DNA of 5,374 nt, from assembly GCA_030698575.1 (NCBI GenBank), contig JAUYMQ010000454.1:1-5374 (forward strand), read 5' to 3'. The translations under genes were made by a program, and so were the position numbers. Below the pieces are notes generated by a model. The model ran no database searches and was not told the DNA's origin. It worked only from the letters and a program-made list of their open reading frames with translations. This stretch comes from Deltaproteobacteria bacterium. Lineage in GTDB: Bacteria; JAUYMQ01. This document shows, in pieces, positions 837-4,933 of this stretch; position 1 is the stretch's first letter, and the number at the start of each line of letters is the position of its first letter.

Positions 837-2078
837 TCAGCGCGGGCGGATGCGGCCGTCCATGTCCGGGATCACGAATGCCGGATCGTAGCGGCAGGGG
901 CCACCAACACCCGGCGCGATCGCGTTGCAAAGAGCCTGGATGCTGGCCGCCGAGGGCTGAGGCGCCCCGGCCACCCAGCCCCGCAGGCTTTCCCAGCCCG
1001 AGATGAGCTCGGCGTTGCTGAAACCACAGTGCGTGTTGCCCGCCTCGTTGACGATCGCGGTCGTGAGGTTCCCGGCGGGAACGACGTCGGCGTACTCCCT
1101 CTCGTTCTCGACGATGACCAGGCCGTCGCCGTCGGTGTGGACCGAGACGATCTTCACGCTGCCGACCTGCCCCTTGGGCGTGAAATTTTTGCCCAGGCGG
1201 GTGGCGGCGCCGTTGTTCACCGCGACGCGCTGGATGGTCGTATCGATGACGCCGCCGTTGTCATAGTTGACATTGACGTTTCCGACACCCTGCCCGCCGT
1301 TGAGCTTCGCCGGATCAAAGATCACGTTCGACATGGCGAAGAGACCGTATCCCAGGTCGGTCAGGAGAAAGCTCGGCGGAAGCTGCGTGATTGTCAGGTA
1401 TTGAACCAGCCTGGCGGTCTGCGCAACAGTCGCCCCTCCAAAAATCCCGAAGCAGGCGTGGGCCGCAAACGCCATCTGTGTCTGGCTGTAGGGGTAGGTC
1501 GGGAAGCCAGGGGCCGGAAGGCCCGTGGCGCCGCCTGGAATCGCCGCGCCCGGCACGGCCGAACAGATAGCGTCATAGGTCAGGCGCAGGTCGAGCGCGC
1601 CGTCCCAGTTGCGGCTGCCGGCCACCGCGCCGCAGAAGGGGTAGGCGCCGACCAGATTGCCGACGTTGGCCTTCTCGACGCCCTGGGCCGTCACGATGCC
1701 GCCCAGCGATCCGCCGTTCAAGAGCACGTTGTTCGGCGTGCCGAAGTTCGCCTTGAAAGCAGCAACCATGTTCTGGAGATCGTTCTTGGTCTTGAAGAGC
1801 GCCCAGCCGATCTGCTGGTAGCTCGAGGCCGCAACGGCGTACCCCTCGCTGAGCTGCACGGCGGCCAGCGGCCCGAGGTCGGACACCGGCCCGACCGGGC
1901 TCAGGCTGAAGCCGTGGTTCCAGATGACGAGATCACCGTTCCAGACGGTGGGAACGACGATCCGGAAGAAGGCGCCGCCGTCCGTGGTGCCCGTGAGGAC
2001 GGTGTCGGCATGGGCCGCCGGGGCTGAAATCCCGACGAGCGCGGCGACGAGCGCCAGCGCAAGAAGTGTTCGCTTCAT
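837..2078 (-). CDS. secreted alpha/beta-hydrolase (serine esterase-like)
   Basis: A 413-residue protein. Residues 1-24 are a Sec signal peptide (MKRTLLALALVAALVGISAP, then AAHA) with a likely signal peptidase I cut after AHA24. An alpha/beta-hydrolase domain follows. WNHGF (53-57) is the expected HG oxyanion-loop motif after a strand, NGGSLGG (121-127) is the nucleophile elbow with Ser124, VHTDGDGLV (313-321) offers Asp316 or Asp318 as the acid, and GNTHCGF (348-354) gives His350. A block FCGAVAGSRNWDGALDLRL (148-166) resembles, from memory, a family of secreted hydrolases of unknown substrate common in actinobacteria. The long stretch between Ser and Asp suggests a large lid insertion. The mature protein has six cysteines (149, 172, 209, 351, 384, 395), an even number suitable for disulfides in the periplasm or outside. 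The ATG at 2078 is chosen over upstream in-frame codons because AAGGGGG lies 8 nt before it and a signal peptide begins exactly there. It appears to be its own transcription unit with a sigma-54 promoter. Substrate unknown; ester or amide hydrolysis is inferred from the fold. Confidence 0.88.
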   Translation of the reverse strand: MKRTLLALALVAALVGISAPAAHADTVLTGTTDGGAFFRIVVPTVWNGDLVIWNHGFSLSPVGPVSDLGPLAAVQLSEGYAVAASSYQQIGWALFKTKNDLQNMVAAFKANFGTPNNVLLNGGSLGGIVTAQGVEKANVGNLVGAYPFCGAVAGSRNWDGALDLRLTYDAICSAVPGAAIPGGATGLPAPGFPTYPYSQTQMAFAAHACFGIFGGATVAQTARLVQYLTITQLPPSFLLTDLGYGLFAMSNVIFDPAKLNGGQGVGNVNVNYDNGGVIDTTIQRVAVNNGAATRLGKNFTPKGQVGSVKIVSVHTDGDGLVIVENEREYADVVPAGNLTTAIVNEAGNTHCGFSNAELISGWESLRGWVAGAPQPSAASIQALCNAIAPGVGGPCRYDPAFVIPDMDGRIRPR

Positions 2079-2298: not shown

Positions 2299-2333
2299 AG
2301 AAAGACTTTTCCTTATTAGGGAAAAACTTTTCC
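2299..2333 (-). promoter_or_regulatory. tandem GGAAAAGT repeats, possible enhancer (UAS) sites
   Basis: On the minus strand, GGAAAAGTTTTTCC (2333-2320) and GGAAAAGTCTTTCT (2312-2299) are two related near-palindromes whose starts are 21 bp apart, two turns of the helix. They lie about 96-130 bp upstream of the -24 element, the usual distance for activator sites of sigma-54 promoters. The first copy overlaps the last codons of the TPR gene. The same bases can also fold into an imperfect 14-bp RNA hairpin around the TPR stop codon, so a transcript-end role is an alternative. Confidence 0.4.
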
Positions 2334-2966
2334 TCCCTCCAGGACCCACAACTGGGTCTCCTCGTCACGGACCATGGGACGGCCACCGGCCAGCTTTTCC
2401 GCCTTTTCACGCGCGTAGGCGGCCCGCTCCAGCAGGATGTCGCGCTCGTAGAGGTTCACGAGATCGACCCACACCTGCGGATCGTTTGGCGCCAGCTCAG
2501 CGGCGCGCTTCAGGTGCGGGTAGGCCTTCGGGTAGTCGGTCATGAGCGTGAGCAGCCGCCCGTAGTCCGATCGCGGCGCGGGATCCTCGGGATCGGCTTC
2601 GATGGCTTGCTCGAACAGGTCGACGGCCTGCTCCAGCTCCCCTTGTCGCCAGGCATTGAGCGCCTGCGTGTTGAGGGTCCGCGCCGCTTCCGTTTGCACA
2701 CCCGGCGGCGTGGCGCGGGGGGCCGGCTGGGGCAGGACCTCGTCGGAGAGCTTCTCGCGCGGAACGATCTTCTTCGTCAGCGTCCACTTTTCGGCCTCGC
2801 CCTCGGCACCGGGAAGGTACTGCGTCACGGACTTGCCGAGCGGAACCGGCTGCGCGCCGACCTCGGGCGACGGTGGAACCGCCGGCTTCTCATCGCGGGA
2901 CGTAACCAGGAACGCGCCGACCCCGGCGACAAACACGATCAGGAGTGCAACCAGAGAACGTCTCAC
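2316..2966 (-). CDS. membrane-anchored periplasmic TPR protein
   Basis: A 216-residue protein if started at GTG 2966. Residues 2-3 are Arg, followed by one hydrophobic segment (about 4-21, SLVALLIVFVAGVGAFLV), which fits an N-terminal anchor with the rest in the periplasm. Residues 25-92 are a Pro-rich, probably disordered linker. Residues 94-193 carry about three tetratricopeptide repeats, clearest as LNTQALNAWRQGELEQAVDL and YPKAYPHLKRAAELAPND. The C-terminal 20 residues (DEETQLWVLEGGKVFP) are not TPR. TPR domains bind proteins; no partner can be named. GTG is preferred because it forms GTGA with the stop of the upstream propeller gene and has GAGG 5 nt before it, a typical coupling arrangement. 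ATG at 2981 or 3017 would add 5 or 17 residues but lacks a good ribosome site. It is probably co-transcribed with the propeller gene. TPR proteins are common around exosortase and surface-polysaccharide systems, which fits but does not prove a role in sorting or assembly. Confidence 0.85.
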   Translation of the reverse strand: MRRSLVALLIVFVAGVGAFLVTSRDEKPAVPPSPEVGAQPVPLGKSVTQYLPGAEGEAEKWTLTKKIVPREKLSDEVLPQPAPRATPPGVQTEAARTLNTQALNAWRQGELEQAVDLFEQAIEADPEDPAPRSDYGRLLTLMTDYPKAYPHLKRAAELAPNDPQVWVDLVNLYERDILLERAAYAREKAEKLAGGRPMVRDEETQLWVLEGGKVFP

Positions 2967-4813
2967 AAGCCCCTCGAGCATCCGGCCGCGCCAAGGCGCG
3001 CCCGACGCAGGCGCCATGCGCCCAGGGAGAAGGAGAGAAGCAGGAAAAGAGCGAAGCCCTCGGGGGAGAGCGCCGGCACACCGCCGCCGCCCCCGCTCTG
3101 GGCGGGCGGGAAGGCGAGATCGACCGGAGCGTCGAGACCGCCGCTTCCCGACGATACAAAGGTGTCGATGAAGGCGCCGTTCGCGCCATCGTAGCGCTTG
3201 ATCGAATCGTTCTCCTTGCTCACCACGTAGAGGTCCCCATCGGGCCCGAATTCGATGCCCGTCGGGCCGTCGAGGCCGCCCGACCCCGCCGTCACGAAGG
3301 TCTGCACGAAGGCACCCGTCGTGCCGTTGAACTCCTTCACATCGTCATATACCCACGAAGACACGAAGAGGTTGCCGGTGTGGAAGGTGATTGCCCAGGG
3401 CGCGATCGGATCCATCCCCGTGTTCCCGAGGGAGTCGACGAAGACGCCGACAAAGGCGCCCGTCGTACCATTGAATTCCTTGATGTTGAAATCCGGGAAT
3501 CCACCGGCAACAAAAAGGTTCCCGTTCGGCCCGAAGGACAGGCCTTGCGGATTCACCAGGCCCTGAAGGCCAGTGACGAAGGGCCCCATCGGATCGCCGG
3601 TTACACCATTGAAACGGTATATCCCGTCGGAGGCGGGGCAAGAGATGTACAAGTTTCCGTCTGTGCCGATCACCTGATCGAACGGGAAAGCGAATGAGGT
3701 CGGGCAGGCATCGAAGAACTTCCGCACCTCCGTCCCGATCTGCCCGCTGTACTCGACGACGTCGTTGTCGGGCTGGCTGCCGACGATGATGTTCCCCGCG
3801 GCCGTGAAGGTCATGCCGCTGTCGGCCGGGGTCGATATGCCGCGCGCCAGCGTGCCCGTGGGCGTGCCGGCGCTGTCGTAGTAGATGATCGCGTTCGTCG
3901 AGAGGCTCGAGACGAGGAGCGTGCTGCCGTTCCAGGCCACGCTACTCGGCGTGCTGAGGCCTCCGGCGCCCGGCGAGACCAGGGTCGTGACGGCGAGCGT
4001 GGTCAGATCGACTGCGACGACGTTGTTGGTGAACTGCCCCGCCACCGTGAGCTTGCCGTCGGGCGCCAGGGCAATTCCCATGGGGCCGTCAACTCCCGCG
4101 CCGCTCGCGAGCACCACGCGGTCGAAGACCCAGCTCGAACCGTTGAAGGTGTACTCGAGGACGCGATCCGTGTCCATGTCGGCCACCAGCATGTCGGTGG
4201 ACGACCGGAACAGGATCCCCGCCGGTGACGAAAGTCCCGAGCTGATCACGTTCGTGCCCGAGCCGCCCGAGTCCGGCACGCGCTTCACGAGGTTGTTGAA
4301 GGCGTCGCTCACGTAGAGATCGGAGCCGTTCAGCGCGATGAAATTGAAGTTCGCCGTGCCGTCGGTCGCGAGCGTCGAAACGCTGCCCGACGAAACGACC
4401 ATCTTCTTGACGGCATCGGTGCTGACGCTAAGGACGGTGTCGGAGGCCAGGAAGTAGATGTTCGCGCCGGTTCCATCAAAAGTGAGGGCACCGGGCGTGA
4501 GAAGGCCGGTCTTCGCAACGGGTGTGATGACGGCACCAGTGGCCGTCGTGTATTTCCAGAACTCGCTTGTGGCCGTGCTGGAGACCCAGAGCACGCCGTC
4601 GGAGGGGCGGATGGCCATGCCGCCGGGTAGCTGGAATCCGCTTGTGACGGGCGAGATGAAGGTGCTGACGAAGGCGCCGGTGGTGCCGTCGTAGCGCTTG
4701 ACCTCCTGCGTGGCCTGGCTCACGACAAAAAGGTCCTGGGCGGCCGAAATCGAAGGCCACGCCAGGACCAGCAGGAACACACCTAGAATGAACAGCCGCC
4801 CGCGGGCAGCCAT
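2963..4813 (-). CDS. secreted NHL/Vgb-type beta-propeller with IPTL-CTERM-like sorting tail
   Basis: A 616-residue protein if started at ATG 4813. Residues 1-25 are a Sec signal peptide (MAARGR, then LFILGVFLLVLAW, then PSISAA) cut before Gln26. Residues 27-570 are beta-propeller repeats of NHL/virginiamycin-B-lyase/SMP-30 type, with recurring P.G(I/L).(F/A).PDG(D/N)L(Y/F)V signatures such as GPTGIEFGPDGDLYVVS (516-532). A gluconolactonase or lyase activity should not be assumed; the family name reflects the fold. After a Gly linker (574-578), VPALSPEG (579-586), a hydrophobic helix (587-600) and RLRRAR (601-606) resemble the IPTL-CTERM form of the PEP-CTERM signals that exosortases process, so the protein is probably placed at the cell surface or released. 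A 10-residue tail follows the Arg cluster. An upstream in-frame ATG at 4906 overlaps the predicted -10 box and is unlikely. ATG 4840 is possible but would lengthen the n-region. No clear ribosome site precedes 4813. Confidence 0.88.
   Translation of the reverse strand: MAARGRLFILGVFLLVLAWPSISAAQDLFVVSQATQEVKRYDGTTGAFVSTFISPVTSGFQLPGGMAIRPSDGVLWVSSTATSEFWKYTTATGAVITPVAKTGLLTPGALTFDGTGANIYFLASDTVLSVSTDAVKKMVVSSGSVSTLATDGTANFNFIALNGSDLYVSDAFNNLVKRVPDSGGSGTNVISSGLSSPAGILFRSSTDMLVADMDTDRVLEYTFNGSSWVFDRVVLASGAGVDGPMGIALAPDGKLTVAGQFTNNVVAVDLTTLAVTTLVSPGAGGLSTPSSVAWNGSTLLVSSLSTNAIIYYDSAGTPTGTLARGISTPADSGMTFTAAGNIIVGSQPDNDVVEYSGQIGTEVRKFFDACPTSFAFPFDQVIGTDGNLYISCPASDGIYRFNGVTGDPMGPFVTGLQGLVNPQGLSFGPNGNLFVAGGFPDFNIKEFNGTTGAFVGVFVDSLGNTGMDPIAPWAITFHTGNLFVSSWVYDDVKEFNGTTGAFVQTFVTAGSGGLDGPTGIEFGPDGDLYVVSKENDSIKRYDGANGAFIDTFVSSGSGGLDAPVDLAFPPAQSGGGGGVPALSPEGFALFLLLSFSLGAWRLRRARLGAAGCSRGL
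2996..3079 (-). other. IPTL-CTERM-like C-terminal sorting signal
   Basis: This segment encodes residues 579-606 of the propeller protein: VPALSPEG, then a hydrophobic stretch FALFLLLSFSLGAW, then RLRRAR. The three-part order (short motif, transmembrane helix, Arg cluster) defines the PEP-CTERM class. Against IPTLSEWG the motif keeps P, L, S and G, with V for I; the W is lost. The matching protease would be an XrtH-type exosortase encoded elsewhere. Confidence 0.7.
3155..3619 (-). repeat. four regular propeller repeats, (K/Y)(R/E)(Y/F)(D/N)G.(T/N)GAFV..F
   Basis: Four copies of one motif begin at residues 399 (YRFNGVTGDPMGPFV), 445 (KEFNGTTGAFVGVFV), 493 (KEFNGTTGAFVQTFV) and 539 (KRYDGANGAFIDTFV), spaced 46, 48 and 46 residues. 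A fifth copy, KRYDGTTGAFVSTFI, is at residue 39 (4655-4699). The middle of the protein carries more divergent blades. The spacing matches one blade per repeat, and the similarity of the first and last copies could mean they complete a ring or arose by blade duplication. Confidence 0.75.
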
Positions 4814-4904
4814 GAAAAAATTCGTCGCCAAGACTTGCATCCTCGACCCGAAGGTTCCGGGGCCGGAGATGCCAACCTGAGTTCTCTGCCCCCACGGCAC
4901 GGTC

Positions 4905-4933
4905 ATCCTATCGGCGGCACCGGATCAAGTCAA
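4905..4933 (-). promoter_or_regulatory. sigma-70-type promoter of the propeller-TPR operon
   Basis: The minus strand reads TTGACT (4933-4928), a 17-nt spacer, then TAGGAT (4910-4905). The -35 matches TTGACA in 5 of 6 positions, the -10 matches TATAAT in 4 of 6, and the spacer is optimal. Transcription would start near 4898, about 85 nt before the ATG at 4813. The next gene upstream on this strand ends at 5025, so the promoter sits in the only gap available. Confidence 0.65.

Follow-up and report, generated by a model that had tools for sequence, protein, structure and literature searches.

The window, by which we mean the whole stretch of 5,374 nucleotides analysed here, carries on its reverse strand a gene for a secreted beta-propeller protein with a predicted C-terminal sorting tail, and a downstream gene for a TPR protein:

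4736..4813, reverse strand: N-terminal signal peptide MAARGRLFILGVFLLVLAWPSISAAQ (inspection and hydropathy)
2963..4813, reverse strand: gene for the secreted NHL beta-propeller (616 aa when read from the ATG at 4813)
3080..3094, reverse strand: Gly5 linker preceding the motif (translation)
2996..3079, reverse strand: predicted sorting tail, made up of VPALSPEG, the hydrophobic helix FALFLLLSFSLGAW and the basic cluster RLRRAR (translation, coordinates and HMM scores)
2316..2981, reverse strand: TPR protein gene with an N-terminal membrane helix, downstream of the propeller gene (ORF and domain search)

The open reading frame of the propeller (2963-4906, reverse strand) reaches an upstream ATG at 4906, from which its translation gives 647 aa. 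The ATG at 4813 is the likely start, giving a typical signal peptide, and the earlier note, which placed the tail at residues 575-616, had numbered from this internal ATG. The signal peptide is the hydropathy peak of the whole protein (2.31 over 17 residues), and translation of 2963-4906 (reverse strand) gives the C-terminal end ...PPAQSGGGGGVPALSPEGFALFLLLSFSLGAWRLRRARLGAAGCSRGL*. The beta-propeller body described in the earlier note was borne out by NHL repeats above the Pfam cut-off (22.5 bits, cut-off 20) and by phmmer matches to solved NHL propellers (Pizza7H, 8.7e-8; PknD, 4.3e-7), while ScyE/ScyF-type propeller models matched below their cut-off. AlphaFold run without an alignment returned a poor model (mean pLDDT 36.7), the best part of which was the C-terminal helix at 615-637; we left this model aside and identified the propeller from sequence matches only.

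The ATG of the TPR gene lies at 2981, within the 3' end of the propeller gene (19-base overlap), indicating that the two genes are likely co-translated and probably form one operon. Elsewhere in the window (837-2075, reverse strand) lies a gene for a secreted 412-aa protein, which contains a GGSLGG motif like that of an alpha/beta hydrolase and found no match in Pfam or NCBIfam.

The tail has the three-part build that had been noticed from the sequence, a Gly linker leading into VPALSPEG, a helix and RLRRAR, and it lies at exactly 2996-3079 on the reverse strand: the V codon of the motif begins at 3079, the last R of the cluster ends at 2996, and 10 more residues follow before the stop. This is the general architecture of sorting tails (PMC3237569). 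Motif, helix and basic cluster at the C-terminus, together with a signal peptide recognized by inspection and hydropathy at the N-terminus, are also the features by which an XrtH-class signal is defined.

Exosortase H and sibling tails in the same genome

A search with PF09721 revealed two exosortases in the genome. One of these, at C634:410-862, scored 110.7-110.8 bits in the exosortase H model (TIGR04177, cut-off 86), and the XrtH model outscored every other exosortase model. Its Cys95, Arg136 and His155 are invariant across four aligned XrtH proteins (itself and three others), and Haft et al. 2006 (PMC1569441) proposed that Cys, Arg and His form the catalytic triad in the EpsH family. With a score above 86 bits and all three residues in place, this protein is an exosortase H. 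At this locus (L022), two thioredoxin/DsbA-like genes lie upstream of xrtH, and a gene for a small membrane protein, cut by the contig end, follows it. A similar-looking gene also comes after xrtH at L050, L051 and L052; we found no fitting NCBIfam family for this small membrane protein.

Searching the genome by phmmer with the 33-residue window tail recovered seven further tails, and a home-built tail profile brought the total to 15 at E<=0.01, the window tail included. The 14 siblings, some C-terminal and some internal, sit on otherwise unrelated proteins, among them another propeller, a multicopper oxidase, a subtilase-like S8 protease that carries TSP3 repeats, two YncE/cytochrome-like proteins, one choice-of-anchor-like protein, cohesin/TSP3-type proteins and RHS proteins; several unrelated carriers per genome are a further mark of the XrtH class. 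Since the genome contains both exosortase H and 14 further tails, lacking neither of the two things whose absence the earlier note had set against its own reading, the prediction of an XrtH-type exosortase elsewhere in the genome and of other proteins with VPALSP-TM-Arg tails holds.

Two of the siblings, IPALSPRG and IPTLSGLS, passed the IPTL-CTERM model TIGR04174 in the genome search (23.0 and 22.7 bits) and fell just below its cut-off in hmmscan (19.5 and 19.0 bits). Neither has a Trp. The earlier note had described the window motif as a departure from IPTLSEWG by loss of W, which is true against that archetype but is quite ordinary in this class, because Trp stands at the motif position in few tails of XrtH genomes (9/29 from named XrtH genomes, 3/15 in the window genome). 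Loss of Trp does not set the window tail apart. In addition, an SdiA-regulated-like propeller (C622:830-886, L045) ends VPALSLASIALFAALAKIVGSDPLTKGV, where the motif begins and the Arg cluster is absent; its tail is possibly truncated or frameshifted.

The tail also occurs in mid-protein in at least three RHS/YD-repeat proteins (C613, L012; C121, L043; C233, L046). C151 (L007) and C555 (L047) probably hold fragments of two more, the motif of the latter lying beyond the contig end. In these proteins YD repeats are followed by TSP3 calcium-binding repeats, a [VI]PAL motif, a helix, an Arg cluster, a second helix and the HTDHLG/RHS core. The midcut-by-XrtH model NF033207 matched four of the five RHS proteins below its cut-off (26.2 bits or less, against 45), and the internal tails that we saw elsewhere among XrtH genomes lie ahead of domains other than an RHS core. 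We tentatively raise the possibility that in this lineage the signal used by XrtH has shifted to [VI]PALSxxGxxLFL, and that the enzyme also acts on internal copies of it between the YD/TSP3 repeats and the RHS core. If so, large RHS shells would be split in two by XrtH in the course of export. No description of such RHS cleavage was found in the literature searched, nor any relevant paper on XrtH, IPTL-CTERM or midcut-by-XrtH in the open literature.

The second exosortase, on C317 (L003, L030), is of the EpsH type (8TM_EpsH, 179.6 bits) and is accompanied by an EpsI gene (79.7 bits); a glycosyltransferase gene lies near the pair. The genome also encodes a separate PEP-CTERM set, with 17 matches over 16 bits and two more when neighbours are counted, and two PEP-CTERM genes are found on the xrtH contig itself. 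Two parallel sorting systems are present in one cell, XrtH with VPAL/IPTL tails and an EpsH-type enzyme with PEP tails. A tail swap between the sibling on C349 and a PEP-CTERM protein on C634 was considered and rejected, the bodies of the two proteins matching weakly (E 0.003 over 29 residues).

Profile tests and distribution of the tails

Neither of the models that the earlier note had singled out recognized the window tail. TIGR04174 (cut-off 20.5 bits) did not report it at E<=10, either in hmmscan or in the genome search, and the PEP-CTERM model TIGR02595 returned 22 matches at E<=10 in the genome, from which the window tail, lacking a PEP motif, is absent. The GlyGly-CTERM model gave no match to the window protein by hmmscan, and MYXO-CTERM membership was rejected because VPALSPEG lacks the invariant Cys of that signature motif. 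As TIGR04174 misses it, we describe the window tail as a divergent tail of the XrtH class and do not count it as a member of that model.

An independent profile, built solely from those tails of other XrtH genomes that TIGR04174 likewise accepts, gave the window tail 16.1 bits. Among 5000 shuffled decoys, in which linker, motif, helix and basic segment each kept their own composition, the mean score was -0.5 (sd 3.3) and two reached 16.1 bits. The PEP-CTERM tails of the same genome scored at most 10.9 bits, and some siblings scored low (1.5 bits on C99, 5.1 bits on C349). In the 15-tail profile the leave-one-out score of the window tail was 28.2 bits against a decoy maximum of 21.7, a figure that is partly circular because the window tail had partly recruited the set.

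We also compared 192 genomes across Bacteria. The sampled relatives share only the domain with the window genome, whose phylum has no other member of >=80% completeness in the collection compared. XrtH exceeded its cut-off in 4/192 genomes, the window genome included. Besides the window genome, two of the three remaining XrtH genomes had at least two tails by the home profile, against 0/188 genomes without XrtH over the cut-off, each of which had at most one weak match (Fisher p=1.7e-4, window genome excluded). In the third other XrtH genome (G057), a VPALTKW tail gene below the profile threshold lies directly upstream of xrtH (...VPALTKWSILVLLLML...RKE); the same position in G009 is taken by an IPTLSEWG tail gene (...IPTLSEWGLILF...RRKRK).

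Named genomes were scanned for XrtH with a profile from a two-sequence alignment, a single-protein XrtH query having given no match against them. The scan yielded 23 XrtH loci, mostly in Acidobacteriota and many of those in Thermoanaerobaculia. The home profile detected tails in 20/23 of these genomes, 17 of them with two or more, and TIGR04174 exceeded its cut-off in 23/23. By manual comparison of the lists, 15/20 of the strongest home-profile matches coincided in place with TIGR04174 matches, indicating that the home profile and the NCBI model largely see the same thing. The co-occurrence of tail sets with XrtH across genomes, added to the cognate exosortase in the window genome, supports the pairing of tail and enzyme that marks the XrtH class.

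Interpretation of the window tail

Taken together, our results argue strongly that the window tail is a C-terminal sorting signal of the XrtH class, resembling IPTL-CTERM and predicted to be cut by the exosortase H of the genome. It is a divergent member of an already known kind of sorting signal. From the sequence, the propeller would be exported by Sec through its signal peptide. The tail helix would then stop in the inner membrane, and under the positive-inside rule RLRRAR would be cytoplasmic and VPALSPEG would face the periplasm. On the exosortase model (PMC1569441), the Cys-Arg-His site of XrtH would cut at or near VPALS, and the cut propeller may be passed to the cell surface or released.

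A plain C-terminal anchor, with helix and Arg cluster holding the propeller in the inner membrane and no sorting enzyme involved, would agree with the failure of TIGR04174 to report the tail and with the moderate hydrophobicity of the helix (1.59 over 17 residues). We consider it improbable, since it leaves unexplained both the shared motif and the link to XrtH: 14 further proteins of the genome, otherwise unrelated, share VPALS..G ahead of the helix, tail sets track XrtH across genomes, and the motif itself is conserved in addition to helix and charges, with segment-preserving shuffles losing score. That the tail is a PEP-CTERM variant and a substrate of the EpsH-type exosortase, an enzyme that does exist in this genome and whose substrates have an identical three-part plan, is very unlikely given the separate and clear PEP-CTERM set, which excludes the PEP-less window tail.

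An XrtH-class signal at this locus implies that XrtH substrates reach beyond the current IPTL-CTERM model, which gave two borderline hits in this genome against 15 tails by the home profile. Annotations of XrtH bacteria therefore probably miss part of the surface proteome. With its two exosortase systems side by side, this genome also offers a setting in which to test the tag specificity of each enzyme. The window tail is otherwise an ordinary sorting signal, and the internal use of the module in RHS proteins is the more unusual feature.

Likeness to known systems

The closest likeness is to IPTL-CTERM (TIGR04174) and exosortase H (TIGR04177), with which the window tail shares the xPxLSxxG motif, a similar helix length, the terminal Arg cluster, many unrelated carrier proteins per genome and the presence of XrtH. 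It differs in having VPAL for IPTL, no Trp and an 'LFLLL' helix start, and in lying below the detection limit of TIGR04174. Midcut-by-XrtH (NF033207) uses the same tail module placed internally and bears on the RHS proteins found here, whereas the window tail is C-terminal. PEP-CTERM (TIGR02595) with EpsH/XrtA has the same three-part architecture and is represented here by the parallel system, but its model misses the window tail, which has no PEP motif. MYXO-CTERM with myxosortase shares the general strategy and differs in the Cys of its motif.
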